A stretch of 64,000 nucleotides of DNA from Sipunculus nudus (taxonomy: Eukaryota > Annelida > Sipuncula > Golfingiida > Sipunculidae): NCBI GenBank assembly GCA_026874595.1, contig CM049320.1, positions 43,348,714-43,412,713 on the forward strand. The letters are read 5' to 3'. Positions 7,201 to 55,600 of the stretch are shown here, piece by piece. Under the pieces are notes generated by a model. That model made no database searches and had not been told where the DNA came from. It was given only the letters and a program-made list of their open reading frames with translations. Each line of letters opens with the position of its first letter. Within the stretch, counting starts at the first letter, position 1. Both the position numbers and the translations under genes were made by a program.

Positions 7201-7472
7201 TTGTACAGGGCCTCTTGTTTTTGTATAAAGTGATCTAAATTGTGGTGGGTGTTTGTACAGGGCCCCTTGATCTTGTATTAAGTGATCTATATTTGTGGTG
7301 GGTGTTTGTACAGGACCTCTTGATTTTTTATTAAGTGATCTATATTTGTGGTGGGTGTTTGTACAGGGCCCCTTGATCTTGTATTAAGTGATCTATATTT
7401 TTGGTGGGTGTTTGTTCAGGACCTCTTGATTTTGTATTAAGTAATCTATATTTGTGGTGGGTGTTTGTTCAG
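4281..7472. repeat. 53-bp minisatellite, right segment ending at the exon 1 acceptor
   Basis: About 60 further copies of the 53-bp unit. The last unit reads TTTGTGGTGGGTGTTTGTTC and runs into the real acceptor of exon 1 at 7471-7472. The last copies (from about 7380) show more substitutions, including TTGTTCAG in place of TTGTACAG, as expected for an array edge. The intronic side of the acceptor is therefore part of the repeat unit. Confidence 0.95.
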
Positions 7473-7615
7473 GAAGGTTGGAAGCAGGAGGGCAGAGACG
7501 GGGGAGACATCGGAGCTCCACGGGACGCATCAAGGCCGGACATGATGAAGGTGTTACAGAACCTTGAGTACATCCTCATCAAGTCCAGATATGATGGTGA
7601 TCAGAAAGAGGTCAG
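7473..7615 (+). CDS. HSPG2: Exon 1 of window: C-terminal part of first L4 domain
   Basis: Acceptor TTTGTTCAG/GA, donor CAG/GTAGGT; enters in phase 0 and leaves in phase 2. The peptide starts [14 protein letters not shown] and contains [15 protein letters not shown], aligning with exon 11 of the second L4 ([13 protein letters not shown]). At 143 nt it is 24 nt longer than exon 11; the eight extra residues lie in the glycine/aspartate-rich stretch before the ATRE-equivalent. The upstream exons of this L4 are left of the window, beyond the 53-bp array whose last copy supplies this acceptor. Confidence 0.9.
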
Positions 7616-10600
7616 GTAGGTCACAGGTCAAGGTCACGAGTATTCATGTAACTTTTTAAATATTAATACAGATTATAATCCTCTGATATTTTAAAAGCCC
7701 GGCTGTAGGGAGGATATGTTAGTTCATGATATGACCCATTCAGTTACAGGCATGATGTAGAAACATTATTGGATTAATGAATAGGTTTTGCTGGTACTGC
7801 TCACATTTCATCTTGTTTGCATTCTTTATTTGTAGAATCAGTGATATCTCTATGGGAGTCGGTGTTTCACAGGACCAAGGTCAAGGCCGAGCTGTCCTGG
7901 TTGAGGAGTGTAAGAAGTGCCCAACTGGATATACAGGCCTATCGTGTGATGTGAGTGTTTGAATTTCATTAGAGTAACTGCAGCAGTAGTAAAATCTAGA
8001 AAAACAGCTTCCTAAAAATTACTTCCAAACCACAGAGCTGGCTTTTGATGGTAATATTAGTTATTATAATGTTATAATATTATAATTATAAGGTGAAAAT
8101 GGAAACAGGGCTGATCATGGGATGGAACCCATTTCCTGTGACACACAAGTCAGATGCTGTACCTGCTGCGCCAATGAAGCAAGTTTCATTAGCAAGGCCA
8201 GCAGGAACTTTTGTGTACTGGTACATGGTTACATTAATGTCTAAAGTATTTTCTCTCGTACTATGTTGTCTTGTAGCAATGTGCTCCAGGCTTCACCAGG
8301 GGACCAGGAGGCAGATACCTCAGGCGTTGTGTGCCCTGTAAATGTAACGGCCTCTCTAACGAGTGTGACCCAGAGACTGGAGAATGTAAGGTCAGTATCA
8401 GTGAGACAGAGTGTTAGACAATAGGTGTGAGGTCAGTGTTATTGAGAGGGAGTGTAAGACAGCAGGTGTGAGGTCAGTGTTGGTGAGAGGGAGTGTAAGA
8501 CAACAGGTGTGAGGTCAGTATATATCAGTGAGAGGGAGTGTAAGACAGCAGGTGTGAGGTCAGTGTTAGTTAGAGGGAGTGTAAGACAGCAGGTGTGAGG
8601 TCAGTGTTATTGAGAGGGAGTGTAAGACAGCAGGTGTGAGGTCAGTGTTGGTGAGAGGGAGTGTAAGACAGCAGGCGTGAGGTCAGTGTTAGTTAGAGGG
8701 ACTGTAAGACAGCAGGTGTAAGGTCAGTGTTAGTTAGAGGGAGTGTAAGATGGCAGGCGTGAGGTCAGTGTTAGTTAGAGGGACTGTAAGACAGCAGGCG
8801 TGAGGTCAGTGTTAGTAAGAGGGACTGTAAGACAGCAGGTGTGAGGTCAGTGTTAGTTAGAGGGACTGTAAGACAGTAGGTGTGAGGTCAGTGTTATTGA
8901 GAGGGAGTGTAAGACAGCAGGTGTGAGGTCAGTGTTGGTGAGAGGGAGTGTAAGACAACAGGTGTGAGGTCAGTATATATCAGTGAGAGGGAGTGTAAGA
9001 CAGCAGGTGTGAGGTCAGTGTTAGTTAGAGGGAGTGTAAGACAGCAGGTGTGAGGTCAGTGTTATTGAGAGGGAGTGTAAGACAGCAGGTGTGAGGTCAG
9101 TGTTGGTGAGAGGGAGTGTAAGACAGCAGGCATGAGGTCAGTGTTAGTTAGAGGGACTGTAAGACAGCAGGTGTAAGGTCAGTGTTAGTTATAGGGACTG
9201 TAAGACAGCAGGTGTAAGGTCAGTGTTAGTTAGAGGGAGTGTAAGATGGCAGGCGTGAGGTCAGTGTTAGTTAGAGGGACTGTAAGACAGCAGGCGTGAG
9301 GTCAGTGTTAGTTAGAGGGACTGTAAGACAGCAGGTGTGAGGTCAGTGTTAGTTAGAGGGACTGTAAGACAGTAGGTGTGAGGTCAGTGTTATTGAGAGG
9401 GAGTGTAAGACAGCAGGTGTGAGGTCAGTGTTGGTGAGAGGGAGTGTAAGACAACAGGTGTGAGGTCAGTATATATCAGTGAGAGGGAGTGTAAGACAGC
9501 AGGTGTGAGGTCAGTGTTAATTAGAGGGAGTGTAAGACAGCAGGTGTGAGGTCAGTGTTATTGAGAGGGAGTGTAAGACAGCAGGTATGAGGTAAGTGTT
9601 GGTGAGAGGGAGTGTAAGACAGCAGGTGTGAGGTCAGTGTTATTGAGAGGGAGTGTAAGACAGCAGGTGTAAGGTCAATGTTATTGAGAGGGAGTGTCAG
9701 ACAGCAGGTGTGAGGTCAGTGTTAGTGAGAGGGAGTGTAAGACAACAGGTGTGAGGTCAGTATATATCAGTGAGAGGGAGTGTAAGACAGCAGGTGTGAG
9801 GTCAGTGTTAGTTAGAGGGAGTGTAAGACAGCAGGTGTGAGGTCAGTGTTATTGAGAGGGAGTGTAAGACAGCAGGTGTGAGGTCAGTGTTGGTGAGAGG
9901 GAGTGTAAGACAGCAGGCGTGAGGTCAGTGTTAGTTAGAGGGACTGTAAGACAGCAGGTGTAAGGTCAGTGTTAGTTAGAGGGAGTGTAAGATGGCAGGC
10001 GTGAGGTCAGTGTTAGTTAGAGGGACTGTAAGACAGCAGGCGTGAGGTCAGTGTTAGTAAGAGGGACTGTAAGACAGCAGGTGTGAGGTCAGTGTTAGTT
10101 AGAGGGACTGTAAGACAGTAGGTGTGAGGTCAGTGTTATTGAGAGGGAGTGTAAGACAGCAGGTGTGAGGTCAGTGTTGGTGAGAGGGAGTGTAAGACAA
10201 CAGGTGTGAGGTCAGTATATATCAGTGAGAGGGAGTGTAAGACAGCAGGTGTGAGGTCAGTGTTAGTTAGAGGGAGTGTAAGACAGCAGGTGTGAGGTCA
10301 GTGTTATTGAGAGGGAGTGTAAGACAGCAGGTGTGAGGTCAGTGTTGGTGAGAGGGAGTGTAAGACAGCAGGCATGAGGTCAGTGTTAGTTAGAGGGACT
10401 GTAAGACAGCAGGTGTAAGGTCAGTGTTAGTTATAGGGACTGTAAGACAGCAGGTGTAAGGTCAGTGTTAGTTAGAGGGAGTGTAAGATGGCAGGCGTGA
10501 GGTCAGTGTTAGTTAGAGGGACTGTAAGACAGCAGGCGTGAGGTCAGTGTTAGTTAGAGGGACTGTAAGACAGCAGGTGTGAGGTCAGTGTTAGTTAGAG

Positions 10601-13600
10601 GGACTGTAAGACAGTAGGTGTGAGGTCAGTGTTATTGAGAGGGAGTGTAAGACAGCAGGTGTGAGGTCAGTGTTGGTGAGAGGGAGTGTAAGACAACAGG
10701 TGTGAGGTCAGTATATATCAGTGAGAGGGAGTGTAAGACAGCAGGTGTGAGGTCAGTGTTAATTAGAGGGAGTGTAAGACAGCAGGTGTGAGGTCAGTGT
10801 TATTGAGAGGGAGTGTAAGACAGCAGGTATGAGGTAAGTGTTGGTGAGAGGGAGTGTAAGACAGCAGGTGTGAGGTCAGTGTTATTGAGAGGGAGTGTAA
10901 GACAGCAGGTGTAAGGTCAATGTTATTGAGAGGGAGTGTCAGACAGCAGGTGTGAGGTCAGTGTTAGTGAGAGGGAGTGTAAGACAACAGGTGTGAGGTC
11001 AGTATATATCAGTGAGAGGGAGTGTAAGACAGCAGGCGTGAGGTCAGTGTTAGTTAGAGGGACTGTAAGACCACAGGTGTAAGGTCAGTGTTAGTTAGAG
11101 GGAGTGTAAGACAGCAGGCGTGAGGTCAGTGTTAGTTAGAGGGACTGTAAGACAGCAGGTGTAAGGTCAGTGTTAGTTAGAGGGACTGTAAGACAGCAGG
11201 TGTAAGGTCAGTGTTAGTTAGAGGGAGTGTAAGACAGCAGGCGTGAGGTCAGTGTTAGTTAGAGGGAGTGTAAGACAGCAGACGTGAGGTCAGTGTTAGT
11301 TAGAGGGACTGTAAGTCAGCAGGTGTGAGGTCAGTGTTAGTTAGAGGGACTGTAAGACAGCAGGTGTGAGGTCAGTGTTATTGAGAGGGAGTGTAAAACA
11401 GCAGGTGTGAGGTCAGTGTTGGTGAGAGGGAGTGTAAGACAACAGGTGTGAGGTCAGTATATATCAGTGAGAGGGAGTGTAAGACAGCAGGTGTGAGGTC
11501 AGTGTTAGTTAGAGGGAGTGTAAGACAGCAGGTGTGAGGTCAGTGTTATTGAGAGGGAGTGTAAGACAGCAGGTGTGAGGTCAGTGTTGGTGAGAGGGAG
11601 TGTAAGACAGCAGGTGTGAGGTCAGTGTTATTGAGAGGGAGTGTAAGACAGCAGGTGTGAGGTCAGTGTTAATTAGAGGGAGTGTAAGACAGCAGGTGTG
11701 AGGTCAGTGTAAATGAGAGGGACTGTAAGACAGCAGGTGTAAGGTCAGTGTTAGTTAGAGGGAGTGTAAGACAGCAGGCGTGAGGTCAGTGTTAGTTAGA
11801 GGGACTGTAAGACAGCAGGTGTAAGGTCAGTGTTAGTTAGAGGGACTGTAAGACAGCAGGTGTAAGGTCAGTGTTAGTTAGAGGGAGTGTAAGATGGCAG
11901 GCGTGAGGTCAGTGTTAGTTAGAGGGACTGTAAGACAGCAGGCGTGAGGTCAGTGTTAGTTAGAGGGACTGTAAGACAGCAGGTGTGAGGTCAGTGTTAG
12001 TTAGAGGGACTGTAAGACAGCAGGCGTAAGGTCAGTGTTAGTTAGAGGGAGTGTAAGACAGCAGGCGTGAGGTCAGTGTTAGTTAGAGGGACTGTAAGAC
12101 AGCAGGCGTGAGGTCAGTGTTAGTTAGAGGGACTGTAAGACAGCAGGTGTAAGGTCAGTGTTAGTTAGAGGGAGTGTAAGACAGCAGGCGTGAGGTCAGC
12201 TTTAGTTAAAGGGACTGTAAGACAACAGGTGTGAGGTCAGTATATATCAGTGAGAGGGAGTGTAAGACAGCAGGTGTGAGGTCAGTGTTAGTTAGAGGGA
12301 GTGTAAGACAGCAGGTGTGAGGTCAGTGTTATTGAGAGGGAGTGTAAGACAGCAGGTGTGAGGTCAGTGTTGGTGAGAGGGAGTGTAAGACAGCAGGTGT
12401 GAGGTCAGTGTTATTGAGAGGGAGTGTAAGACAGCAGGTGTGAGGTCAGTGTTAATTAGAGGGAGTGTAAGACAGCAGGTGTGAGGTCAGTGTAAATGAG
12501 AGGGACTGTAAGACAGCAGGTGTAAGGTCAGTGTTAGTTAGAGGGAGTGTAAGACAGCAGGCGTGAGGTCAGTGTTAGTTAGAGGGACTGTAAGACAGCA
12601 GGTGTAAGGTCAGTGTTAGTTAGAGGGACTGTAAGACAGCAGGTGTAAGGTCAGTGTTAGTTAGAGGGAGTGTAAGACAGCAGGCGTGAGGTCAGTGTTA
12701 GTTAGACGGACTGTAAGACAGCAGGCGTGAGGTCAGTGTTAGTTAGAGGGACTGTAAGACAGCAGGTGTGAGGTAAGTGTTAGTTAGAGGGACTGTAAGA
12801 CAGCAGGTGTGAGGTCAGTGTTATTGAGAGGGAGTGTAAGACAGCAGGTGTGAGGTCAGTGTTGGTGAGAGGGAGTGTAAGACAACAAGTGTGAGGTCAG
12901 TATATATCAGTGAGAGGGACTGTAAGACAGCAGGTGTGAGGTCAGTGCTATTGAGAGGGAGTGTAAGACAGCAGGTGTGAGGTCAGTGTTGGTGAGAGGG
13001 AGTGTAAGACAACAGGTGTGAGTCAGTATATATCAGTGAGAGGGAGTGTAAGACAGCAGGTGTGAGGTCAGTGTTAGTTAGAGGGAGTGTAAGACAGCAG
13101 GTGTGAGTTCAGTGTTATTGAGAGGGAGTGTAAGACAGCAGGTGTGAGGTCAGTGTTGGTGAGAGGGAGTGTAAGACAGCAGGTGTGAAATCAGTGTTAT
13201 TGAGAGGGAGTGTAAGACAGCAGGTGTGAGGTCAGTGTTGGTGAGAGGGAGTGCAAGACAGCAGGTGTGAGGTCAGTGTTGCTGAGAATGAGTGTAAGAC
13301 AGCAGGTGTGAGGTCAGTGTTAGTTAGAGGGAGTGTAAGACAGCAGGTGTGAGGTCAGTGTTATTGAGAGGGAGTGTAAGACAGCAGGTGTGAGGTCAGT
13401 GTTGGTGAGAGGGAGTGTAAGACAACAGGTGTAAGGTCAATGTTATTGAGAGGGAGTGTAAGACAGCAGGTGTGAGGTCAGTGTAAGTGAGAGGAACTGT
13501 AAGACAGCAGGTGTGAGGTCAGTGTTGGTGAGAGGGAGTGTAAGACAGCAAGTGTGAGGTCAGTGTTGGTGAGAGGGAGTGTAAGACAACAGGTGTGAGG

Positions 13601-16600
13601 TCAGTATATATCAGTGAGAGGGAGTGTAAGACAGCAGGCGTGAGGACAGTGTTAATTAGAGGGACTGTAAGACCACAGGTGTAAGGTCAGTGTTAGCTAG
13701 AGGGAGTGTAAGACAGCAGGTGTGAGGTCAGTGTTAGTTAGAGGGACTGTAAGACAGCAGGTGTAAGGTCAGTGTTAGAGGGACTGTAAGACAGCAGGTG
13801 TAAGGTCAGTGTTAGTTAGAGGGAGTGTAAGACAGCAGGCGTGAGGTCAGTGTTAGTTAGAGGGACTGTAAGACAGCAGGTGTGAGGTCAGTGTTAGTTA
13901 GAGGGACTGTAAGACAGCAGGTGTGAGGTCAGTGTTAGTTAGAGGGACTGTAAGACAGCAGGCATAAGGTCAGTGATAGTTAGAGGGAGTGTAAGACAGC
14001 AGGCGTGAGGTCAGTGTTAGTTAGAGGGACTGTAAGACAGCAGGCGTGAGGTCAGTGTTAGTTAGAGGGACTGTAAGACAGCAGGTGTAAGGTCAGTGTT
14101 AGTTAGAGGGAGTGTAAGACAGCAGGCGTGAGGTCAGCTTTAGTTAAAGGGAGTGTGAGACAGCAGACGTGAGGTCAGTGTTAGTTAGAGGGACTGTAAG
14201 ACAGCAGGCGTGAGGTCAGTGTTAGTTAGAGGGAGTGTAAGACAGCAAGTGTAAGGTCAGTGTTAGTGAGAGTGAGTGTAAGACAGCAGGTGTGAGGTCA
14301 GTGTGAGTGAGAGGGAGTGTAAGACAGCAGGTGTGAGGTCAGTGTTTTTGAGAGGCAGTGTAAGACGGCAGGTGTGAGGTCAGTGTTAGTTAGAGGGGGT
14401 GTAAGACAGTAGGTGTGAGGTAAGTGTTAGTTAGAGGGACTGTAAGACAGCAGGTGTGAGGTCAGTGTTATTGAGAGGGAGTGTAAGACAGCAGGTGTGA
14501 GGTCAGTGTTGGTGAGAGGGAGTGTAAGACAACAAGTGTGAGGTCAGTATATATCAGTGAGAGGGACTGTAAGACAGCAGGTGTGAGGTCAGTGTTATTG
14601 AGAGGGAGTGTAAGACAGCAGGTGTGAGGTCATTGTTGGTGAGAGGGAGTGTAAGACAACAGGTGTGAGGTCAGTATATATCAGTGAGAGGGAGTGTAAG
14701 ACAGCAGGTGTGAGGTCAGTGTTAGTTAGAGGGAGTGTAAGACAGCAGGTGTGAGTTCAGTGTTATTGAGAGGGAGTGTAAGACAGCAGGTGTGAGGTCA
14801 GTGTTGGTGAGAGGGAGTGTAAGACAGCAGGTGTGAGGTCAGTGTTATTGAGAGGGAGTGTAAGACAGCAGGTGTGAGGTCAGTGTTGGTGAGAGGGAGT
14901 GCAAGACAGCAGGTGTGAGGTCAGTGTTGCTGAGAATGAGTGTAAGACAGCAGGTGTGAGGTCAGTGTTAGTTAGAGGGAGTGTAAGACAGTGTTAGTGA
15001 GAGTGAGTGTAAGACAGCAGGTGTGAGGTCAGTGTGAGTGAGAGGGAGTGTAAGACAGCAGGTGTGAGGTCAGTGTTTGTGAGAGGCAGTGTAAGACAGC
15101 AGGTGTGAGGTCAGTGTTAGTTAGAGGGGGTGTAAAACAGTAGGTGTTAGGTCAGTGTTAGTGAGAGGGAATGTAAGACAACAGATATGAGGTCAGTATC
15201 AGTGAGAAGGAGTGAGTGTTAGACAGCAGGTGTGAGGTCAATGTTAGTGAGAGTGAGTGTAAGACAGCAGGTGTGAGGTCAGTGTTATGGAGAGGGGGTG
15301 TAAGACAGTAGGTGTTAGGTCAGTGTTAGGGAGAGGGAATGTAAGACAACAGATGTGAGGTCAGTATCAGTGAGAGGGAGTGAGTGTTAGACAGCAGGTG
15401 TGAGGTCAATGTTAGTGAGAGGGAATGTAAGACAGCAGGTGTGAGGTCAGTGTGAGTGAGAGGGAGTGTAAGACAGCAGGTGTGAGGTCAGTGTTAGTGA
15501 GAGGGAGTGTAAAGGGTTGAACGCACCGAGGCTGACATGTGTCTCAACACAACACACAACACACAACACTGATGACGTCTAGTGTGTTTCAATGTCCTCT
15601 TGAGTCATGGTAGTGGACCAGGTCACACATCAAATTTTGAAGAAGGATTAACATAAGAGAAGTGTCGTCTTTGCATCCAGGGCTGCGTGGCATTATCTTG
15701 CAAGCTCGATTTGTCATGCAATGGAAGCCTGTGTTGAGTTGTCGGGAACAAGCTGGATCATGCAGTAGAGTTGGAAGCGTGACACTTTACACAATACAGG
15801 ACATGCCAGGCATCTCAAAAGGACACAACTTCCTGCCAACACACTGCATACTCCCACCAACACACTGCAGTCTACATGACGTGAACCCCATATGTGCTGT
15901 GAGTGTGTCAGTTAATTGGGTTGCTAGTTTGACTGCGCGACACACTTCATGTGAACCAAGTGTCAGTTTGTGTTGCCTGATTTCTGTGTCGGTCCCTGTG
16001 GCCCTGTGTCGATATGTGTGTTGGCCTTGGTGGGTTTAGCCCTTAAGACAACAGATGTGAGGTCAGTGATAAGTGAGAGGGAGTGTTAGATGACATATGT
16101 AGTTTAATGAGACATTGTGAGGAGTATGAGGACCTTCTTGAAATAATTAAGATGAGATGTAAAAGGAATTGAAATATAAAACAGTGCTCCTACAGAGACA
16201 GGCAGACAGTGCTGTTTAGTACTGTTTATTTGCTGATTCCTGACCTGTGGTTATTGAAGGGTGCATACAGCATTAACTTCAGGATTTAAAACCTTTTGTT
16301 AAGATTCAAGTCTCCTTTACATTTGACAGAGGAAGAACCAGTTTTATGGAATGTCATTTTCCTAATCTGAATGCATTTGACTAAATGAGGACTTTATTTT
16401 AGGGTTGTCAAGACAACACAATGGGTGAGAACTGTGACCAGTGCCGCCCTGGTTTCTATGGTGATCCAGCTAATGGCATTCCTTGTCGAGCATGCACTTG
16501 CCCTCTGTCAACAAGCAGCAACCAGTAAGTAACGTGTGCACATGCAGCTTCTGTATTCTGTTCAGTTGTGACTGGAAATAACTGTGAATATAGTGACAGC

Positions 16601-19600
16601 ATAAACAAAATAGTAAATGAACAATGCATGGAGTAGAATAGGTTACAAGTTATTTCATTAGAGCCGCCAGTGAATTTTGCTGAGTTTATGTGTTCACTTG
16701 TTTTTTTGGGGGGATGATTTGTTAATTTGTCCACACAGTTTCTTTAAAAGAAACTTTGTTGAGGTTTAGCCAAAGAACCATTGCTTTAAGTTTAGGGTAG
16801 GTCTGAATGAAGATATAACTAAATTCACCTCCGTTTTCATCTTGCTTTGTGTGTCTGTCAGTTTCCAGAAAATTAATTGATGGCCAAGATATGATTACTT
16901 TTTCCTGTCCACTTGTCTCATTTAAAAAAATCATTTAAATTCATTTACAACTTTGGTATCGTTTTGACAGCAGATGGTTATTTATTACAACTTTGATGTT
17001 GTGTTGACAGCAGATGGTTATTTACAACTTTTTTTATCATGTTGACAGCAGATGGTTATTTACAACTTTGATATTGTGTTGACAGCAGATGGTTATTCAC
17101 AACTTTGATATTGTGTAATGACAGCAGATGGTTATTTACAACTTTGATATTGTGTAATGACAGCAGATGGTTATTTACAACTTTGATATTGTGTAATGAC
17201 AGCAGATGGTTATTTACAACTTTTTTTATCATGTTGACAGCAGATGGTTATTTACAACTTTGATATTGTGTAATGACAGCAGATGGTTATTTACAACTTT
17301 TTTTATCATGTTGACAGCAGATGGTTATTTACAGCTTTGATATCGAGTTGACAACAGATGGTTATTTACAACTTTTTATATCATGTTGACAGCAGATGGT
17401 TATTCACAACTTTGATATTGTGTTGACAGCAGATGGTTATTTACAACTTTGATATTGTGTAATGACAGCAGATGGTTATTTACAACCGTTATTGAACACA
17501 GGTGACATTAAAACTAGTTCATGGTTCATGGTTAGATAATTGCTCTCCAAATAGCTAGGCCATTTCCTCTTTATCTTTTCAAATGCTTATATGTAAAAAA
17601 TATAAATATAAGTACATTCTGCATCTGTTAAAATTTTACAAAGTTCAGCTGAGCGCTGTGACCAATGGGTCTCTTGTTTTTTTCTGAAATTCCTAGGTTT
17701 AGCCAGGACTGTTACCTTGACACCAGAGATAATCAAGTTACTTGTCGGAACTGTCCTGATGGCTACACTGGACGTCGCTGTGAGAAGTGTGCCCCGGGCT
17801 TCACGGGAGACCCCACCAAGCCAGGGGACACCTGCAGCACAGGTACAGTACCCTCATATCTCTGACAGGTCACATGACCTGTTGGTTGGGCTGTCTCTTG
17901 TGTTATACTAATAACATTAACTTGAGTTCTGCTCCATCACACCTATTCTTATAAAAATAAGATTTATACCTTAGTGTGCATTACAGTAGAACACACACAA
18001 TTAAATAAAATGCCATTAAGTAATAACTAAGTATAACATTTCTGATGTCTTTCAATAATTCTTGGATTACTAAAACTCACATAAAATAGGTAAAATACAG
18101 CTCGGTTTCAATGCAGTTTAAAATTTTCCTTGTAACTGGAATAATCAATATGCTGATTATATACTTAAAAATCAAACTGTGTCCTTATTAGTAAGTAAAG
18201 TGGTCAGGTTTCTTTCTGCTGTCTGGTGTATGTTGTGATGACAAGTGATAGTGCTGCGTGAACAGCCTGTGCAGGTTGTGATGTCAGGCTCCTGAAAGCC
18301 ACATCTCTACCCCTCCAAGCTGTTTCCCTTAACAAAATTTATAATTCCAACTATCATCCATCCTGAAATGTTAATTAGGTAATCATGACATATGCAGTAA
18401 ATATATAGTGTATTTACAAAGAAATTAACAATTAGTGCTGTGCTGGCAGTTATACCAGCTGCAGAAAATATAGATGTTACCACAGCTAATATTATAAATT
18501 TTGGAAAACCTGAGATTTCTTCTTCAGGTCATTGACACATGACATCAGGTAAGTGTTACATGACATAGGACATGAGTGAGTTTGACAGGGTTTTGATACC
18601 TTTGTTTAGACTGACTTGTTGGGTTCACACCCCCCTTCCTAAGGTTCAAATGAAGGCCGGTGGGTGTTTCCCTTTCTTTGTAGGCATATAATAACTATCT
18701 ATATACACACAGTTTCAAGACACTTATTTGTTTGATTAGAAAAATAATTAACTGTTTCCCATTAAAGCACACAGTCCTTTTATTAATATGAGTGGCAAAG
18801 CAGTAGCAGCCTTGCATACATTGTGGCCGTTTAAGCTATACTTGCTTACACCTAGAATATGCTTCAGTTTTATTTACATAGATTAGGCACAACAATTATA
18901 ATTCAATTGAAGGTTATCATATGAACATACCCTGGCTTCAGCAATCAACATTATGAACATGTCTTCCTAAATCTCAGGACCAGATGTATTATTATATTCT
19001 ATGAAATCTATTAGTAATGTTCATGCCCCCTCGTCACCATTGCAGGCCAGCTCAAACTGTTGCTGGGACGTGATGTCTTCAATGTGATGTTGCCCTGGCT
19101 GCAAAGCACCATGGGCAAAAACCTCAGACCTATAAGGCCTGACAAAAGTTCAGCAGCCATAATATAATAGATTACGGTATGTTAAAATATTAATTTCCCT
19201 CACACTCAGGATCGGGAGTTTTCTAATTTATTAAACTTAATGGAAAATTATTAAAAATAAACAAAATATTGACCTTTCATTGTACATAATCAGCTTCCAT
19301 TGAACAAACAGTTTTGCCAAAATGCATTACTGACAAGGCTCAGGCCAAACTCTGTTATTTAAGTACTGTTTAGTGTCCTTCCCTCTGTCTCTTTACATAA
19401 CCAGTCCTTTATTATATTTTCAAGTATCACTACTTTTTTAGGCTTTTTAAGGGGCCTTCCCTAGCCTGCCAATGTTCTAGTTATTTAAAAACATTTACCC
19501 ATTTGCATTTTTCATTGCACAATAGAAACGTCAAATTTTAATAAAACACATTGTCATTTTCTGAAATTGTCATTTTTATAAATTCAGTTGGAGCTCCCAG

Positions 19601-40600: not shown

Positions 40601-43600
40601 GAATGTTCTGTACATCTCCATCTGTGGCCGAGACCCAACCATCAGGTATGGTGCTGGCTCTTGATTTGTTCTTCATGGATATCACAAGAATGCTGTGGGC
40701 CATAGTCATGTTTTCTTATAACAAGGACTGAACAACATCAACTCCAGGGAAATATGTAAACGTTCACCTGGGGATGTGTATGTTATGTATATTACTTATT
40801 GACAGGACTGTGATGATGGCTATACCAGACCAGGAGACGGGATTTACCTGGGGATGTGTATGTAATGTATATTACTGATTGACAGGACTGTGCTGATGGC
40901 TACACCAGATCAGGAGACGGGATTTACCTGGGGATGTTTATTTTATGTATATTACTTATTGACAGGACTGTGATGATGGCTATACCAGATCAGGAGACGG
41001 GATTTACCTGGGGATGTGTATGTAATGTATATTACTGATTGACAGGACTGTGCTAATGGCTATACCAGATCAGAAGACGGGATTTACCTGGGGATGTGTA
41101 TGTTATGTATATTACTTATTGACAGGACTGTGATGATGGCTATACCAGATCAGGAGTCGGGATTTACCTGGGGATGTGTATGTAATGTATATTACTGATT
41201 GACAGGACTGTGCTGAAGGCTATACCAGATAAGAAGACGGGATTTACCTGGGGATGTGTATGTAATGTATATTACTGATTGACAGGACTGTGCTAATGGC
41301 TATACCAGATCAGAAGACGGGATTTACCTGGGGATGTGTATGTTATGTATATTACTGATTGACAGGACTGTGCTGAAGGCTATACCAGATAAGAAGACGG
41401 GATTTACCTGGAGATGTGTATGTAATATATATTACTGATTGACAGGACTGTGCTGAAGGCTATACCAGATAAGAAGACGGTATTTACCTGGGGATGTGTA
41501 TGTAATGTATATTACTGATTGACAGGACTGTGCTAATGGCTATACCAGATCAGAAGACGGGATTTACCTGGGGATGTGTATGTTATGTATATTACTTATT
41601 GACAGGACTGTGATGATGGCTATACCAGATCAGGAGTCGGGATTTACCTGGGGATGTGTATGTAATGTATATTACTGATTGACAGGACTGTGCTGAAGGC
41701 TATACCAGATAAGAAGACGGGATTTACCTGGGGATGTGTATGTAATGTATATTACTGATTGACAGGACTGTGCTAATGGCTATACCAGATCAGAAGACGG
41801 GATTTACCTGGGGATGTGTATGTTATGTATATTACTGATTGACAGGACTGTGCTGAAGGCTATACCAGATAAGAAGACGGGATTTACCTGGAGATGTGTA
41901 TGTAATATATATTACTGATTGACAGGACTGTGCTGAAGGCTATACCAGATAAGAAGACGGTATTTACCTGGGGATGTGTATGTAATGTATATTACTGATT
42001 GACAGGACTGTGCTGAAGGCTATACCAGATAAGAAGACGGGATTTACCTGGGGATGTGTATGTTATGTATATTACTGATTGACAGGACTGTGATGATGGC
42101 TATACCAGATCAGGAGATGAGATTTACCTGGGGGTGTGTATGTAATGTATATTACTGATTGACAGGACTGTGCTGAAGGCTATACCAGATCAGGAGACGG
42201 GATTTACCTGGGGATGTGTATGTTATGTATATTACTGATTGACAGGACTGTGCTGAAGGCTATACCAGATCAGGAGATGAGATTTACCTGGGGATGTGTA
42301 TGTAATGTATATTACTGATTGACAGGACTGTGCTGAAGGCTATACCAGATCAGGAGATGAGATTTACCTGGGGATGTGTATGTAATGTATATTACTGATT
42401 GACAGGACTGTGCTGATGGCTATACCAGATCAGGAGATGGGATTCACCTGGGGATGTGTATGTTATGTATATTACTTCTTGACAGGACTGTGCTGATGGC
42501 TATACCAGATAAGGAGATGGGATTTACCTGGGGGTGTGTATGTAATGTATATTACTGATTGACAGGACTGTGCTGATGGCTACACCAGATCAGGAGATTA
42601 GATTTACCTGGGGATGTGTATGTTATGTATATTACTGATTGACAGGACTGTGCTGATGGCTATACCAGATTAGGAGATGGGATTTACCTGGGGGTGTGTA
42701 TGTAATGTATATTACTGATTGACAGGACTGTGCTGATGGCTACACCAGATCAGGAGATGAGATTTACCTGGGGATGTGTATGTTATGTATATTACTGATT
42801 GACAGGACTGTGCTGATGGCTACACCAGATCAGGAGATGAGATTTACCTGGGGATGTTTATTTTATGTATATAACTTCTTGACAGGACTGTGCTGATGGC
42901 TATACCAGATCAGGAAATGGGATTTACCTAGGGATGTGTATGTAATGTATATTACTGATTGACAGGACTGTGCTAATGGCTATACCAGATCAGAAGACGG
43001 GATTTACCTGGGGATGTTTATTTTATGTATATTACTTATTGACAGGACTGTGATGATGGCTATACCAGATCAGGAGACGGGATTTACCTGGGGATGTGTA
43101 TGTAATGTATATTACTGATTGACAGGACTGTGCTAATGGCTATACCAGATCAGAAGACGGAATTTACCTGGGGATGTGTATGTTATGTATATTACTTATT
43201 GACAGGACTGTGATGATGGCTATACCAGATCAGGAGTCGGGATTTACCTGGGGATGTGTATGTAATGTATATTACTGATTGACAGGACTGTGCTGAAGGC
43301 TATACCAGATAAGAAGACGGGATTTACCTGGGGATGTGTATGTAATGTATATTACTGATTGACAGGACTGTGCTAATGGCTATACCAGATCAGAAGACGG
43401 GATTTACCTGGGGATGTGTATGTAATGTATATTACTGATTGACAGGACTGTGCTGAAGGCTATACCAGATAAGAAGACGGGATTTACCTGGAGATGTGTA
43501 TGTAATGTATATTACTGATTGACAGGACTGTGCTGAAGGCTATACCAGATAAGAAGACGGTATTTACCTGAGGATGTGTATGTAATGTATATTACTGATT

Positions 43601-46600
43601 GACAGGACTGTGCTGAAGGCTATACCAGATAAGAAGACGGGATTTACCTGGGGATGTGTATGTTATGTATATTACTGATTGACAGGACTGTGATGATGGC
43701 TATACCAGATCAGGAGATGAGATTTACCTGGGGGTGTGTATGTAATGTATATTACTGATTGACAGGACTGTGCTGAAGGCTATACCAGATCAGGAGACGG
43801 GATTTACCTGGGGATGTGTATGTTATGTATATTACTGATTGACAGGACTGTGCTGAAGGCTATACCAGATCAGGAGATGAGATTTACCTGGGGATGTGTA
43901 TGTAATGTATATTACTGATTGACAGGACTGTGCTGAAGGCTATACCAGATCAGGAGATGAGATTTACCTGGGGATGTGTATGTAATGTTTATTACTGATT
44001 GACAGGACTGTGCTGATGGCTATACCAGATCAGGAGATGGGATTCACCTGGGGATGTGTATGTTATGTATATTACTTCTTGACAGGACTGTGCTGATGGC
44101 TATACCAGATAAGGAGATGGGATTTACCTGGGGGTGTGTATGTAATGTATATTACTGATTGACAGGACTGTGCTGATGGCTACACCAGATCAGGAGATTA
44201 GATTTACCTGGGGATGTGTATGTTATGTATATTACTGATTGACAGGACTGTGCTGATGGCTATACCAGATTAGGAGATGGGATTTACTTGGGGGTGTGTA
44301 TGTAATGTATATTACTGATTGACAGGACTGTGCTGATGGCTACACCAGATCAGGAGATGAGATTTACCTGGGGATGTGTATGTTATGTATATTACTGATT
44401 GACAGGACTGTGCTGATGGCTACACCAGATCAGGAGATGAGATTTACCTGGGGATGTTTATTTTATGTATATAACTTCTTGACAGGACTGTGCTGATGGC
44501 TATACCAGATCAGGAAATGGGATTTACCTAGGGATGTGTGCACCATGTGAGTGTAATGGACATTCTTCAAGCTGTGACCCAGATACAGGTGTCTGTCTGG
44601 TAAGTGGATGATAAATAAAACGTGCCACCCAAAAAACGGTTAATTGGAAAATATGTCTTAATCAAAATTAGGTCATGCAAATTTAGGTTAGTTAGATTTA
44701 TTGCCATTGATATTTTCAAAAATTCTCATGGCTGCATTTACTTATGTATGGTTTTGATATATTATACAGAGAATCATAATTTTAACTACTCACAACAAGA
44801 AAATTGAACCATAGAACAAAACCAACATAACTGTTATTTAAGAATATTTTACAAATGAATGATGTAGATAAAAGAAAGAAATTTATGACCAAGTTGTTGC
44901 AGAAAACTAACAATATTGTTCTATTGGAAGATTTAAGCTTTCAAAACCATTTCACACAAGTAGAATAGTTGGTCAGTGTTAGGTCAGCTGATATATGTGA
45001 AAGGATTGTGATTTTTTTGGTGACCAACACCATGTAAGTTGACAAAACCCTGAGATAACTGCTGTAGGAAGTATCTTGACACACGGTCATTACAGGAATG
45101 TCAGCACAATACTGAAGGAGAAAGTTGTGAGCGATGTGCTGATGGTTACTATGGAGACGCGACTCGAGGTACCAGCAGTGACTGTAGAGTGTGCCCTTGT
45201 CCTCTGACCACTCCATCCAATCAGTGAGTGATGGATATGATCCACATGATTTTTGTATCAACCAATCAGTGAGTAGTGGGTGTAGCCAGTGTGGTTTCTG
45301 TATCAACCAATCAGTGAGTAGCTGGTGTGGCCAGTGTGGTTTCTGTATCAACCAATCAGTCAGTAATGGGTGTGACAAGTATGGTTTCTGTATCAATCAG
45401 TCAGTGACTTATAAAAAAAGTAAAGATATGAAATTAATAAGTCAAAATATGAATGTTTTTGCTATAAAGAAATAAAGCCATGCTGTAGAAACTATAGATT
45501 CATAAAGAGTGTCACCAGCTATGACAGATTAAATGCAAATATCCATCCAAAATCTTAACCAGATTGAACTCCTCTCAGATCAGTGTAACAGCCTGTGTTA
45601 CATCTTACTCGATCGCAGATTCTCCAGGACCTGTCGTCTAGATCCAGATGGTCAGGTGACCTGCCTGAACTGTCAAGAAGGGTATACTGGTCGTCGTTGT
45701 GAGCGCTGTGCTGCTGGGTACGAGGGCAATCCTCTACAACCTGGAAGACCCTGTGTGAAGAAAGGTACACATTTTCAAATGATAGCCATATGTCATAGCT
45801 GTACATGAATCCATCACTTGGTGTTTTAAGAGTTTCATTTTCTGGTTTTGATACAAAGTTTAATCAGTTGTGATGGATGTTTTATTTGTTGTATTAAACA
45901 TTGTCTAATCAGTGAGGCTGTGCATGGCAGGTAGTCTAGATAACTAAGGTGAAACACAGGGCAAGTAGCAAATATCAGTGAATGATAAATCCATGAGAAA
46001 TAGCACAACTTAATATAAGGGAGCAAGTTAAGTTTGAATTGAAATAATCCTTGTGAGGTGACAACAGGACCTGTACATGATTTTCAAATGTGTGAAATCA
46101 AAGTTCTTTACAGATCAGTAAAAAATGGCAATTTTCAAGTGAATCAAATGCAGCATTGTGAGATCATGTTTTCACATTGATATATATATCCCAGGGTGAT
46201 TGTCTGTCTGTGTATCTTCCTTAGATGCCTGTGACTGTGATCCACGAGGAACCAAACCAGACACTGCTTGTGATCCTAGAACTAGACAGTGTCAGTGCAA
46301 GGTCAGTCATATCAGTATCACAAGTCATTAAAACACAGCAGTTCATTTTACAAAACAGCTACAGATATTTTTACCACAGATATGTTATGGTAATGTATAC
46401 ACTAATCTGACCTTGTTTATCTTGGCATACAGCCAGCTGAAGTGACAACACCAGCACTAGGCTAAAAGTTCAGTATTTTTCATTTACATTTAGTTTTGCA
46501 CTTCAAAGCTTCATTTTATCATTGTAGTATAATGACTTTTTATTATTTATGAAGATGGTCACATTTCACAAGGTGGTAGCTTTTTTGTCACAAGGGTAAT

Positions 46601-49600
46601 TTTGACCATTTTTTTTTTAAATTTATTATTATTTAGTGGGGTTGATCTATCCCTAGGAGAAGTGTCAAGGCTCTAACTTCACCTTTTAGAGACAAGATAA
46701 AATATTAAACATAAAAATTTCTTATATATCATCTGTATTCTTATAACTTTAATGATTGTTTTTACCATGAAGCACTTTTTTCACAAAACATGAAATATCT
46801 CAGCAACCTCTTATGTTATAAACTCCAAATTTAAATAAAGTTAACATCTAATGCCCTTACATATATGTTACGTCTTTGTACTGACTCTCCTTCTGTGTTT
46901 TCTCAAGCAATATATCTTGACAAGATTTTCTTGAAAAATGTCTGCAGTGTACAAAATTACTGTGACCATGTTTGAACAATTACTGTGTCTCTATGAAGTG
47001 ATCACATGATTTATTCAGTAGAACTGATAGCTTACAAATCAGGGTACATATACAACTTTAAATATATTGTAAAAACCATACAAATAATGTCATGGCAATA
47101 AATACTCTGATGGTGTGACTGCTTGGCAGAAACTGCTTTCACTCCAACACATGTAATGAAATCTACATGAATATATGCTTGTCTCTTATTTAGTCTGTAA
47201 AGACCTCATGCCTAAATTGTATCCCCACACAAAGTCGTGATAATATGGTTTCACGACGGTCCCGCCGCCGCCGCCGCCAAAAAACTTGTGAGCAGGATAA
47301 CTAAAAAAATATTTCACTGATCTTTTTCAAACTTTACATTTGTATAGATATAGGTAAGGGGACGAAGCCTATTTAAAATGGGGTCATGAACTATGCTAGG
47401 AGAGTGACCTTGACCTTGAATAGGTCCATTTTTGCTGAAAATAACACAAATTCTTAAATATCTCGAGTAAGCTTGCATGGACTGGTCCAAAAATCAAGGT
47501 GACCGAAGATCTTGGATAGCCTTGTGATATACCGGAAACTGGTGGTGCCACCTATTATCCTTTTCTTGTTTTCACGCCTTTTAATACTCCCATAATTGCC
47601 ACTTGAAAGTACTGTAAGCATTATAAGTCAAAAACTAATGGACAGATTTCTTTTAGAGATGGGTTATGGGATGAGGTCTATTTACATTTGGGTCATGACC
47701 TTTACCATGAGAGTGGCCTTGACCTTTAATGTGTCCATATTTGGTGAAAATCACACACCTCTTATGATATCTCCAGTGTTGATAGCCATATGGATTTCAA
47801 ATCTGACTTATGTATGGCCACCACTAAAGTAAGAACCCTATAGGTTCTAGGGTCAAAGGTCAAGGTCACAGGACACATCTTTAAAAAGATTGTGGATGAA
47901 TTTTCAGCCAAACAATTCATCTCAGATCTTTCATCTTGCACATATAGTTCACCTGCCAAGAGTGGAAGACCCCTATCAATTTTGAGGTCACAAGGTCAAA
48001 GGTGAAGGTCACAGGAGCCATCTGTCAAAAAATTAGTTTCTGGATGATAATTCCTGCTTTTATTGATGTATGGATTTCAAACTTGACTTGTATATGTCCC
48101 ATTGGAAAAGCAAGACCCGAATTGATTTTGGGGTCATGAGGTCAAAGGTCAAGGTCACAGGACACATCTTAAAAAAAAAGTGGATGCATTTTCAGCCAAA
48201 CATTTCATCTCAGATCTTTCATCTTGCACATGTAGTTCACCTGCCAAGAGAGGAAGACCCCTATCAGTTTTGAGGTCACAAGGTCAAAGGTGAAGGTCAC
48301 AGGAGCCATCTGTCCAAAAATTTGTTTCTGGATGATAATTCCTGCTTTTATTGATGTATAGATTTCAAACTTGACTTGTATATATCCCATTGGAAAAGCA
48401 AGACCCGAATTGATTTTGGGGTCACAGGACACATCTTTTAAAAGATCAAGGTCACAGGACCAACATCTTCAAAAAGATTGTTGATTGATAGATGGAAGAA
48501 AACAATAATTGCTAGCCAAGTGTCAGTATATGCTGCTAAAAATGGGGGCCTATTCTTAAAGGGGGGGGGGGCCTACTATGTCTGGGGATACTCTGGCTCC
48601 TACGTGCCAAGAAATGTCTAGTTTCTTTCTGGAAATGATTTTGGTGACTACCAAGTATTTTGTATCATTTTTGGAACAAATATGGATGTAAAAATGCTAT
48701 TTATAGGGCTATTAGTATGTACTAATTTATCTGCCCATTACATTTTAGATCACCATTTTCTAGACATCTTTTGTGGTAAAAAGAGCGTTACATATTGTTC
48801 ACCTAAATTAAGAGTGAAAACTTTTCCAGTGGGTTATGATATAAGGTAAAAACTTGCTTGTCATTTTAAAGTACTGTTCAGGAGCATTTACTTAAAGACC
48901 TTTAAATTTCTTACAGTTACATATTCCATCTTTTCTAAAATAAACAATCAAATAAATATGTCACTTTGAAAAAGTTAAACGGGACAACATAACTTCTTTC
49001 ATAAACTTACCCATCAACTTCCACAAAACCCACACAAATTGCTCAGTTCTACATCAGAAGTAGGCTTGACACCTCCAGCAGGTAAAAAGCTCCAAGTAAT
49101 GTTTTAAAATGACAGGCAAAATGTGCTTAGGTAAGCTTCCAAGAAAAAAATACACATCAGCATGTGACACGGGACATGCCAAAATGGCATCAACTGCAGG
49201 GACATTTTGTTTCATATAACTGAGACTTTAGTAATTAGAAAACAAATAATGGTACACTTGATTAGGACATGTTCTAAGCTTTCAGATGTTACAAAGATCA
49301 TGCCTGTAGGGGTTCTGAGGCCATCACAGTGGAGATTTAAGTAACTTTAAGTACAGCTTGCTTCGAAAAGCTACCACCTTCTGAAATGTGACCAGATACC
49401 TTAATGTTAATCTGTAAAACATTCAGCAAGTGACCATTACATCCCATACCTGAATGGAAGATATGCTGTTAAATAGCTGGACTTAAATGTGTTCACATGA
49501 TGAATTTGACTGTTATCCAGACCAATGTGCAGGGAGTGCGATGTGACAGGTGTGCCGATGGTTCATTTAACCTTGATGAGAACAATGTTGATGGTTGTAC

Positions 49601-52600
49601 CAAATGTTGGTGCTCCGGTCACTCTACACAGTGCCAGGGATCAGGCTACTACAAAGACTCAGTAAGTATATCTGACACGGTTGGTCTTACTGTACTTCCC
49701 CAGTGACAACAGCTATACCAAGTGTTGGTTCTCCAGTCACTCTACACAGTGCCAGGGATCAGGCTACTACAAGGAATCAGTAAGTATATCTGACATGGTT
49801 GGTCTCACTGTACTATCCCAGCGTCAACAACTATACCAAATGTTGGTGCTCCGGTCTCTCTACACAGTGCCAGGGATCAGGCTACTACAAAGACTCAGTA
49901 AGTATATCTGACACGGTTGGTCTCACTGTACTATCCCATTGTTAACAACTATACCAAGTGTTAGTTCTCCGGTCACTCTACACAGTGCCAGGGATCAGGC
50001 TACTACAAGGACTCAGTAAGTATATCTGACATGGTTGGTCTCACTGTACTTCCCCAGTGTCAACAGCTTTACCAAATGTTGGTGCTCCGGTCACCCTACA
50101 CAGTGCCAGGGATCAGGCTACTACAAAGACTCAGTAAGTATATCTGACATGTTTGGTCTCAATGTACTTCCCCAGTGTCAACAACTATACCAAATGTTGG
50201 TGCTCCAGTCACTGTACACAGTGCCAGGAATCAGGCTACTCTAAGGACTCTGGCATGGTTAGTGTAGCTGACCTTCAGAATTAATGTTTTCATTATTTGC
50301 AAGTTTGCAGATGATTTTTAAAAAAAGTTATGCCTGGCTAATTTTGAAATCAGAATTTAACATTTGATTCATCAGTTGATTATCGTTACAATATTAATAT
50401 CTTTATGAAATTAGGAGTCTGAAAAATTAACTTGACTAGCTTTAATAGAAGAAGTTCTGCAGCATCTTGATGAAATCAATAAGACGGTTGAATGTTACTG
50501 AATAAACCCTAAAATACCTTTGTGATACAGAGGTAGGAGGTTATTTATCTATATATTTATATATATTTTCATATGTAGTATAAATCAAAACACATGTACA
50601 CATGTATAAAATAACTGTGATTTTGGAATCCTGATTGCTTCTATAGCACTAAAATTTTCCATGGAATAATTCAGCCACATAGCTTTCTGCTTTGTGATGC
50701 TACGTGTCAGTCTCACCATTACTTGTCATGGAGTTGTCTTGTTACAGATAGTCCCTGTCTACATCTCTGATGGCACTCACAACTTTGCCATGACAACGCG
50801 CAGCAGGACGGACTTCATCACAGACGGGTTTACTGTCAACACAAGGAGAAAGGAGATCAAGTTTGAAGACCTGACCAGTGTCCAGCAGGACAGGCGCACC
50901 TTATTCTTCAACCTACCCCCAAGATTCAGGGGAAACCAGGTGAGGAAACAATAAAAACAAGACAGAGATTCAATGAAAACCAAGTGGGAACACGATAAGA
51001 CCAAGATTCAGGGGAAATTAGATGGGAAACAATAAAACAAGTCAGAGATTCATGGAAATCCAAGTGGGAAAACGATTAAACATTTAGGAAAAATTATATG
51101 GGGAAACAATAAAACAAGACAGAGATTCATTAAAACCAAGTGTGAAAACAATTAAACCAAAATTCAGGGGAAGCCAAGTGAGGAAACAATAAAAAAAAGA
51201 CATAGATTCATGGAATACCAAGTGGGAAAAGATTAAACTAAGATTCAGGGGAAATTAGGTGGAGAAACAATAAAACAAGACAGAGTTTCGTGGAAAACCA
51301 AGTGGGAAAACTATTAAACAAAAATTCAGGGGAAACCAGGTGAGGAAACAATAAAAACAAGACAGAGATTCATGGAAAACCAAGTGGGAAAAGGATTAAA
51401 CTTAGATTCAGGGGAAATTAGGTGGAGAAACAATAAAACAAGACAGAAATTCATGGAAAACCAAGTGGGAAAACTATTTAAACAAAATTCAGGGGAAACC
51501 AGGTGAGGAAACAATAAAAACAAGACAGAGATTCATGGAAAACCAAGTGGGGGAAAAGGATTAAACTAAGATTCAGGGGAAATTAGGTGGAGAAACAATA
51601 AAACAAGACAGAAATTCATGGAAAACCAAGTGGGAAAACTATTAAAACAAAATTCAGGGGAAACCAGGTGAGGAAACAATAAAAACAAGACAGAGATTCA
51701 TGGAAAACCAAGTGGGAAAATGATTAAACTAAGATTCTGGGGAAATTAGGTAGGGAAACAATGAAACAAGACAGAGATTCATGGAAAATTAAGTGGGAAA
51801 ACAATTAAACAAAAATTAAGGGGAAACCAGGTGGGGAAACAAATAACACAAGACCAAAATTCAGGGGAAACCAGATGGGAAACATTAAAAACAAGACCAA
51901 GATTCAGTGGAAACTATTGGGGAGAAATCTAAACAAGAGCAAGATTTCTGGTGAACCATATGAGAAACAATAAAAACAAGGCAAATTATAAGGGAATCCA
52001 ATTGGGAAACAATCAAACAAGACAAAGATTTATGGAATCTTGGTGGGAAATAATAAAAAAACAAGATGCATATTAAGGGGAACCAAGTGGAAAAGAATAA
52101 AAACAAGATCCAAATTCAGGGGAACCTGCAGTTTGGAAAAAAAAGATCAGAACCAATAGTCAGGGGAATATTGCTTCTTTCACTGTTAAAAAATTTAATC
52201 TTTACTCAATATGTGTACAGGAAAAAACATATATTCCACTCAATAAAGGTATCCAAACAAGACCAAAATGACATGAACAATTGCAGATATCAGATGACCT
52301 TTATCTTTTCACATATGGTTGTACTTGTGATTAATTTCCTGACAGTTCTTTGGGGATTCTTTTCTAGTGTATGCTTTCTTATATGTTACCGGCCTTGACG
52401 TTTGTTTAATATAACTCATATGACTGTTGTATTGCACAGCTGGCTTCTTATGGTGGATCCCTCACGTATCAGGTGTCATTCACAAAGTCAGACGATGAAG
52501 GCCGTGCTTACCGGGATGTTGATGTGGAACTTATTGTAAGTAAATCAGCTAGACTATTTATTAATTATTTCTCTGTCTGTCAAATGGACTGTATTGTCAG

Positions 52601-55600
52601 TTTAATTAAGATGAAGCCATATTGCAGTGTAGGGATGTGATAATGAAGGCCAATGGAATTTGATGTATTGCAGTTTACTGGATGAACTCAATTCAGAACT
52701 AGTGCCTTGATTATTATAATGATGACCTCTCTCCTTAAAATTCACACACACATTATCTGTTGATTTCCCTCAGGTTTTTAACAGGTTATTAACTTTAGAT
52801 TATATCTAAAATTCTAGTGTCAGTTTAATTATGTATAAGTTAAATTGTGAAATAAGGATATATCTCCTCTACTTAAGAATCATATTAATTATATTTAAAG
52901 TCATTATTATATGTTTATTATTTTGTTTTCTCTATATTATGAATAGTGTAACTTTTAGTTTCTTATTGCACGGTGTCTGCACCATACAAGCTACTATATT
53001 TATGTCTCCTTCCCCTCCAGGGGAGACATGTTGTTTTCAGTGCCATCGTTGTCTGTAGGATATCTTGTGGAGGTTATAACTTTTGAAGGGCTGCATATTT
53101 CCCTCCGAAATTTAAAACACTGTTGATTCCCATCAAAATCTCAGAGGAGTTTGAAACTGGGTGACCTTGACTTTCATTTTCAGGGTTAAATCTGGCCAAA
53201 TGTTAAATTTTTGTAGGATATCTTGTGAACACGATAACGTTTGAAGGGCTGCATATTTTCCTCTGTAATTTAAAAAGCAGATTGTTCCTACAGTGACCTA
53301 GACCTCCATCCTCAAGGTCAAATCCAAATTTGAAAATTATTTTGAAGCCGATAACTTTTGAAATGTTTCACATTTTGTCCTCAAATTTGGTACCCTGATT
53401 TTCCTTACAATGTTCTTGTATGAGTTTGAAAACCAGTGACTTTGACCTTATTCTTCAAGGTCAAATCTGCTGAAATGTAAAATTTTTGGGTAATTTTGTA
53501 AACATGATAACTTTTTAAGGGCTGCATATTTTCCACCGAAATTGTACATACTAATGGTTCCTAATGAAATCTCAGATGACTTCAAAACCCAGTTACCTTG
53601 ACCTCCATCTTTTGTTACAGGGTTATGAGAGAGGGGAGGTGAGGCTGTACTTGTTATTACCTGTATAGTGAATGTTACCTGTTGTTACAGGGTAATGTGA
53701 GAGGGGAGGAGGTGAGGCTGTAGTTGTTATTACCTGTACTATGAATGTTACCTGTTGTTACAGGGTAATGTGAGAGGGGAGGAGATGAGGCTGTACTTGT
53801 TATTACCTGTACTATGAATGTTACCTGTTGTTACAGGGTAATGTGAGGGGGGAGGAGATGAGGCTGTACTTGTTATTACCTGTACTATGAATGTTACCTG
53901 TTGTTACAGGGTAATGTGAGAGGGGAGGAGGTGAGGCTGTACTTGTTATTACCTGTACTATGAATGTTACCTGTTGTTACAGGGTAATGTGAGAGGGGAG
54001 GAGGTGAGGCTGTACTTGTTATTACCTGTACTATGAATGTCACCTGTTGTTACAGGGTAATGTGAGAGGGGAGGAGGTGAGGCTGTACTTGTTATTACCT
54101 GTACTATGAATGTTACCTGTTGTTACAGGGTAATGTGAGAGGGGAGGAGATGAGGCTGTACTTGTTATTACCTGTACTATGAATGTTACCTGTTGTTACA
54201 GGGTAATGTGAGGGGGGAGGAGATGAGGCTGTACTTGTTATTACCTGTACTATGAATGTTACCTGTTGTTACAGGGTAATGTGAGAGGGGAGGAGCTGAG
54301 GCTGTACTTGTTATTACCTGTACTATGAATGTTACCTGTTGTTACAGGGTAATGTGAGAGGGGAGGAAGTGAGGCTGTACTACCTGTATCCTGGTGAGAT
54401 GCAGCCTGACACGACCAACAGAGTGAACATCCTCATGACAGAGGTAAGTATTACCAGAGCTCTGACATCCAGGTTACAGCTTTACAAGCTGCTGCCTCTA
54501 CCGTTCTACATCCAGGTATTATTTGTCTGTGTAGACAGCTATTTCTAACTGTTCATAATTAATTTTCAGGTACACCTAAGAGGCAGATAATAAACAAACA
54601 AACTTTCATGATAAAAAAATAATCCCTATGGAGTTACACATGTAAAATAAGAGATGTTCTTGTTTTGAAAAAAAACTCTGAATAAATTTGCTGACCAATC
54701 AAGGCCACCAACCAGTAGAAGTATCTTGCATTGTTTTGAATGATGTAGGTCATTTTTATCCTCTTACCTTTCAGATTAGTATGTTTTGATTAAACATATA
54801 TGCAATACAGTTATATTTTGTTCATGTGAAATCATGAAATTAAGAAATGGAGAACTGGTTCTAATTTTCATACCTTACCATATTTTCAGATATACATATC
54901 AAGATTTGGTGTATGAACATAAAAATAGATGTAAGTTGAATAGACTTTTTGATTTATGAACTGAGAGTTGATTGATGTACTGACAGTATATCTATAAACA
55001 GACTTGATTGATGGATGGACAGACATTTGACGAATGAACACATAGCTGATTGATGGTAAGACAGACATTTGATTGATGGACAGAGAGTTGATTGATGAAC
55101 AGACAGTTGACTGATGGAGAGACATTTGATTGATGGACAGACAGTTGATTGATGAACAGACAGTTTACTGATGGAGAGACATTTGATTGATGGACAGACA
55201 TTTGATTGATGGACAGACAGTTGACTGATGGAGAGACATTTGATTGATGGACAGACATTTGATTGATGGACAGACATTTGATTGATAGAAAGACAGACAG
55301 TTGATTGATGGATAGAGAAAACTTTGATTGATGGATAGACAAACAGATGATGGATGGACAGACATTTGATTGATGGACAGTCTGTTAGTTGTTAAACTTT
55401 TATTAGGTTGTATTGATCAAAATGAAGTGTAACTTGACATTGCACTTATATTTGTGGGGTTAGGCATCCTTCCAGTCAGGCCGCGGTGGACAGGTGACCA
55501 GAGCTTTGTTTATGGAGGTCCTATCAAACATTGTGGCTTTGATGGTACGAGCCACGTATCAGACCAGGATGGCGTCTGCCAGCATTTCGCGTCTCAGCTT

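Follow-up and report, generated by a model that had tools for sequence, protein, structure and literature searches.

The 64,000-nucleotide stretch analysed here (the window; positions 43,348,714 to 43,412,713 of contig CM049320.1, assembly GCA_026874595.1) comes from the sipunculan Sipunculus nudus and is part of the perlecan (HSPG2) gene, whose introns carry minisatellite arrays that abut exons at many splice junctions. The contig is 64 Mb long, the assembly comprises 1.43 Gb in 153 contigs, and all results refer to the genomic sequence of this one assembly. Within the window 24 exons were modelled, every one with an AG acceptor and a GT donor, and nine further exons were modelled in the 10 kb upstream. 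Joined, these 33 exons stay open over 1426 codons (0 stops); the other two frames contain 40 and 130 stops. Pfam matches on the joined exons comprise Ig, three LDL-receptor A, three Laminin_B and several laminin-EGF domains, so that the set Ig, LDL-receptor A, laminin B and laminin EGF occurs in what we take to be the domain order of perlecan. Furthermore, a 171-residue part has as its closest solved relative the basement membrane heparan sulfate proteoglycan core protein (perlecan), with an E value of 2.1e-29. The open 33-exon join and the matching Pfam domains argue that the exon model is sound, and the exon numbering used in an earlier reading of the window (the original prediction) agrees with it. 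The end of exon 7 was shifted to 26602 by eye. One upstream donor as modelled (L030:3739) does not start with GT and probably extends one codon past the real one; no array lies there.

Tandem arrays were identified with Tandem Repeats Finder (TRF) using a period of at least 8 and a score of at least 100, with overlapping rows merged, which gave 30 arrays in the window and the 10 kb upstream. Setting aside five transposon-like satellites (periods 178–303) and rejoining two arrays split by insertions reduced these to 23. Thirteen of the 23 lie within 10 bp of a splice junction, eight on the donor side and five on the acceptor side, and occupy 13 of the 66 junctions of the perlecan stretch. Twelve overlap an exon end; the remaining one, at exon 7, stops 7 bp short of its exon, and gapped alignment places the AG inside its unit. 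Eighteen of the 23 arrays are inside the window, where nine touch a junction, and four of the five arrays in the upstream 10 kb, outside the stretch on which the original prediction was based, are also at a junction, all on the donor side. All nine junction arrays named in that prediction were recovered from the TRF calls and exon borders (acceptors of exons 1, 7, 9, 13 and 20; donors of exons 3, 14, 17 and 18), against 18 arrays after filtering in place of the predicted total of about seventeen. Its range of about 20–75 nt of exon in five of them is corrected to 15–64 exon bases within the arrays.

Copies of a splice site that lie within an array, in addition to the authentic site, are referred to as decoys. 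They were counted by wraparound alignment, as an ungapped count misaligned the arrays of exon 7 and of the upstream EGF exon. All features lie on the plus strand. Exon 1, the last exon of the first laminin B module (7473–7615; exon model, joined frame and Pfam), is preceded by a 53-bp array (1–7474) that starts 140 bp upstream of the window, includes 2 exon bases and is present in two pieces, 1–1647 and 4283–7474. The second piece holds 59 decoy copies, of which 53 were counted intact, with no substitution in the AG columns. A dispersed 2.6-kb element splits the array at about 1647–4283, and a second copy of this element, 96.7% identical, lies at 29295–31907. At exon 7 (start 26462), a 73-bp array at 25964–26467 (TRF end 26454) has four of six decoy AGs intact. 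The 52-bp array at exon 9 (27084–27311; exon start 27297) includes 15 exon bases, and none of its three decoys is intact; its consensus unit has AA where AG is expected. Exon 13 (start 44486) carries an 80-bp array at 40766–44539 that reaches 54 bases into the exon and keeps all 46 decoy AGs. This array appears to contain higher-order repeats, with frames recurring every 240 bp and those of 42163–42893 found again at 43763–44493. The 73-bp array at exon 20 (53612–54381; exon start 54348) includes 34 exon bases and has 10/10 decoy AGs intact, and its copies match at 97%.

On the donor side, the longest series belongs to exon 3 (8277–8390; exon model and joined frame), where a 41-bp array at 8385–15512 begins with 6 exon bases and retains GT in 167 of 171 decoys. 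The 45-bp array of exon 14 (45217–45407; exon end 45223) and the 118-bp array of exon 17 (49598–50240; exon end 49661) include 7 and 64 exon bases, respectively, and in each all four decoy GTs are intact. At exon 18 (end 50939), an 81-bp array (50919–52126; 21 exon bases) keeps 10 of 14. The four upstream donor arrays include 27, 24, 10 and 6 exon bases. Across the 13 arrays, the number of decoys ranges from 1 to 171 (a few to over 100 in the original prediction), and the exon portion of the repeat unit, estimated from gaps and periods, ranges from 0 to about two thirds. All 13 lie on the intron side of authentic exons that are intact in the joined frame.

The association with junctions is far beyond chance in this gene. 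Sliding each array inside its own intron gives an expectation of 0.88 junction arrays (P 2e-15), and placement across the whole locus gives 1.17, with 0 of 3000 simulations reaching 13. The claim that arrays touch splice junctions more often than random placement predicts is thus borne out by a more than tenfold excess, 13 against about one. Without setting any array aside the count is 13/30. The 20 kb downstream of the window, left out of the main count, contains eight arrays and one probable exon (by eye), and all eight arrays are more than about 100 bp away from it; inclusion of this region gives 13/31. Ordinary intronic arrays occur too, as ten of the 23 lie away from junctions. Examples are the arrays at 16943–17486 (210 bp from exon 5), 20663–22310 (62-bp unit; 2349 bp from exon 6) and 57564–58377 (42-bp unit; 64 bp from the donor of exon 22). 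A tandem unit of about 180 bp at 31905–32395 and 61057–61789, which recurs in a laminin gene on another chromosome (L031–L034), is a dispersed satellite, probably carried by a transposon.

That the assembler created or miscounted the repeats is most improbable as an account of the arrays, since their copies differ from one another (TRF match 72–97%), the exons beside them are intact and comparable arrays occur on other chromosomes, although array lengths may be wrong in the assembly.

The 13 arrays contain 360 decoy copies, 338 of them with an intact AG or GT, and the correct dinucleotide is present in every consensus unit except that of exon 9. Scored with a splice-site matrix built from the gene's own sites (33 acceptors and 32 donors), 232 of the 338 intact decoys equal or exceed the true site; exon 3 alone contributes 156 of these. 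Intact decoys occur in 12 arrays. In eight of them the median decoy outscores the true site or falls short of it by under 1 bit, and in the other four (the upstream EGF exon, the last exon before exon 1, and exons 7 and 18) decoys are weaker than the true site. These scores, though dominated by exon 3, would suit a model in which selection maintains repeated splice sites as an aid to exon recognition or for splicing tuning, as would the 17 mismatches in decoy dinucleotides against 44.8 expected for any column pair (12/13 arrays). However, this conservation is not significant (P 0.08), nor is it against other AG/GT dinucleotides of the same units (P 0.39) or in a rank test (P 0.23), and the decoy dinucleotides of these 12 arrays appear neither purged nor significantly protected. 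Moreover, the true sites that bear arrays are no weaker than the others (8 vs 25 donors, p 0.80; 5 vs 28 acceptors, p 0.35). The first decoy is separated from the exon by an in-frame stop in 10/13 arrays (all but those of the upstream EGF exon, the LDL-receptor exon and exon 1), and regular use of decoys would therefore break the protein. Such use is unlikely, as judged from the sequence, and maintenance of the decoys by selection is accordingly hard to credit. Turri et al. are said to have described, in 1995, a human IFI6 (6-16) minisatellite whose units carry splice donor sites, the extra donors being used; that case is reported to concern one array in one gene, against the 13 arrays of perlecan.

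Tandem repeats at exon–intron boundaries have been termed 'mirages' in amphioxus (PMC3087553; PMC3902484), and to that extent the novelty suggested in the original prediction, which knew of no description of such a gene-wide pattern, is not supported. According to the available passages of these papers, mirages are known from the amphioxus genes for Adh3, the globins BflGb6 and BflGb9, and troponin C (PMC3087553; PMC3902484), with similar tandem repeats in PGBD5 (PMC3902484). BflGb6 has one such boundary, with 3 and 6 units in two haplotypes, BflGb9 has one boundary and PGBD5 has two repeats (PMC3087553; PMC3902484). As described there, mirages can duplicate the 5′ as well as the 3′ splice boundary, the AG or GT persists in many units but not in all of them, the authentic exon is intact, regular splicing is undisturbed, and length is unstable between haplotypes or cells; the reports come from cephalochordates.

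The perlecan arrays resemble mirages in having units that cross the exon–intron boundary, in affecting both boundary types, in keeping AG or GT in 338/360 copies and in leaving the authentic exons intact. They differ from the amphioxus cases described in those passages in occupying 13 boundaries of one gene and in reaching about 170 units. Normal splicing is reported, in the same passages, for the amphioxus mirages; the perlecan arrays are known from genomic sequence alone, and splicing at this locus is likewise expected to be normal. Among the titles, abstracts and passages of open-licence papers that were searched, no gene-wide mirages and none from outside the cephalochordates, molluscs included, were found. 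One candidate precedent, PMC3862624, was rejected, as in its available text 'minisatellite' occurs only inside a reference title. The junction arrays are thus of a known kind, their gene-wide density looks new, and their occurrence in this phylum is probably new.

No pair among the 13 junction arrays shares sequence (blastn, E up to 1e-3), and their births were therefore probably separate. Correspondingly, the homologous exons of the three laminin-B modules carry arrays mostly at differing ends, and a donor array is present at the EGF exon preceding module 1 and again at that preceding module 3, the units of the two being unrelated. It is proposed, with reasonable rather than high confidence, that the arrays are mirage-type minisatellites derived from tandem duplications straddling a junction, and that the junctions of this gene are hot spots of such births. 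A tandem duplication would arise across an exon–intron junction, with breakpoints in the exon edge and in the intron; an exon share of 0 to about two thirds of the unit fits breakpoints placed in this way. The copy nearest the exon would stay under selection and remain the splice site in use, and the remaining copies would sit in the intron, where slippage or unequal exchange could expand or shrink them, to about 170 copies. Splicing would probably disregard the decoys, as exon definition would pair the two sites nearest the coding exon. With 13 births at 66 junctions, more than ten times the number under random placement, the junctions of this gene would be the hot spots and birth the biased step.

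Alternatively, duplications may arise evenly, with intronic arrays soon deleted and those anchored at a conserved exon edge persisting. The position of 13/13 junction arrays on the intron side, beside intact exon copies, is consistent with such survivorship, and deletions that ran beyond an array into the exon would presumably be selected against. However, a bias in survival predicts junction arrays that are older or longer, and neither is clearly the case: median TRF copy identity is 88 in junction arrays and 88.5 in the others (p 1.0), and median length is 770 bp against 488 bp (p 0.23). Since an excess of more than tenfold would also be much to ask of it, survivorship is regarded as doubtful and a bias at birth is favoured. 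The original prediction had named selective tolerance at the exon edge as a possible cause; the intron-side position agrees with that suggestion, but the arrays do not look older and tolerance is unlikely to be the sole cause of so large an excess.

Several observations weigh against birth hot spots at junctions as the full account. Homogenisation among the copies of an array makes TRF identity a poor measure of age, which leaves room for a difference in survival. GC skew, true-site strength and copy identity show no significant difference that would account for the special status of perlecan. Furthermore, the excess is weak in other genes of the same genome, a comparison that the original prediction had proposed and that gave a strong result in perlecan only. 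The controls were 19 stretches of myosin, CCT chaperonin and laminin-EGF genes (268 kb, 114 modelled exons), picked by family and mostly for compactness, and thus not random. Control arrays were limited to periods up to 200; nine with periods above 200 were excluded, all of them at least 161 bp away from any exon match. Four of the 21 control arrays are at a junction, with 1.27 expected (P 0.037 at 10 bp). At other distances the result is P 0.085 at 0 bp (three arrays) and, for five arrays, P 0.020 at 25 bp and P 0.054 at 50 bp.

The four control arrays lie at a myosin acceptor (C9), a myosin donor (C5), a laminin-EGF donor (C1) and a laminin-EGF acceptor (C4). Three of them span the junction, and the laminin-EGF C1 array begins 1 bp past the exon. 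A two-copy duplication in myosin C8 probably crosses a donor (by eye); its exon is not modelled, and it falls outside the 4/21 arrays and the 114 exons. Counted per junction, perlecan has 13/66 against 5/228 elsewhere, the C8 case included (Fisher 4e-6). Per array, the comparison is 13/23 against 4/21 (Fisher 0.015) or 5/21 (0.036). Array sequence makes up 39% of the perlecan stretch (94 kb), as against 9% in the controls. Junction arrays are thus not private to perlecan, which is an extreme case and a hot spot, and their generality is weakly supported.

The CCT genes, with none of their five arrays at a junction, add a further point against junction hot spots, and they also bear on the idea, raised as well in the original prediction, that junctions break during transcription, through R-loops or a pausing spliceosome, and that repair of these breaks leaves tandem duplications; the CCT genes are presumably broadly expressed. 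Coding-strand GC skew is positive in 9/13 junction arrays against 4/10 of the others and reaches 0.65 in the exon-3 array, as R-loops would lead one to expect, but the difference in mean skew (0.22 vs 0.02) is not significant (p 0.13). A transcriptional origin of this kind is considered unlikely.

Some observations concern the comparison genes and the assembly. The long frames in the myosin matches were considered as coding arrays and rejected, as the myosin genes contain few TRF arrays and the longest frame in the one checked (C9) has 128 codons. Myosin residues about 109–153 match repeatedly within 3.7 kb at G000:C2:44848559-44852248, perhaps as alternative exons. Eight contigs (C61, C62, C66, C72, C73, C75, C89 (twice) and C99) together carry nine intact bacterial groEL matches of equal score. 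Contig C61 is 2.2 Mb long, and its groEL is 64–70% identical to 80 loci of mixed phyla among the matches listed. The groEL contigs would represent an unplaced bacterial associate or a contaminant.

Large minisatellite-class repeats are described in intron 1 of earthworm metallothionein genes, which also have duplications of their fourth exon that do not appear in the transcript (PMC12783039). The likeness to perlecan lies in the intronic minisatellites; the available passages of that paper are silent on units spanning a splice junction. The Rogers model, in which introns are created by tandem duplication of AG/GT segments, is tied to mirages in the passages available from the authors of PMC3087553. 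The perlecan arrays share with this model a tandem duplication that includes splice signals, and differ from it in that no new intron was identified and the frame runs across 33 exons.

With these arrays, what had been a curiosity of a few amphioxus genes is extended to an entire stretch of a gene, in what is probably a different phylum, and its excess over chance is measured. Its widest form is tentative and should be regarded as a possibility short of an even chance: splice junctions would be germ-line birth hot spots, such that in some genes a fifth of the junctions (13/66) own a minisatellite, the exon–intron map dictates where minisatellites lie, and splicing copes with up to about 170 full-strength decoys. 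Exon 3, with 171 decoy donors of which 156 score at least as high as the true site, offers a natural test of how the spliceosome chooses among near-identical sites. The arrays likewise provide a way to ask whether minisatellites arise randomly or at functional borders, and they bear on the gain of introns via tandem duplication.

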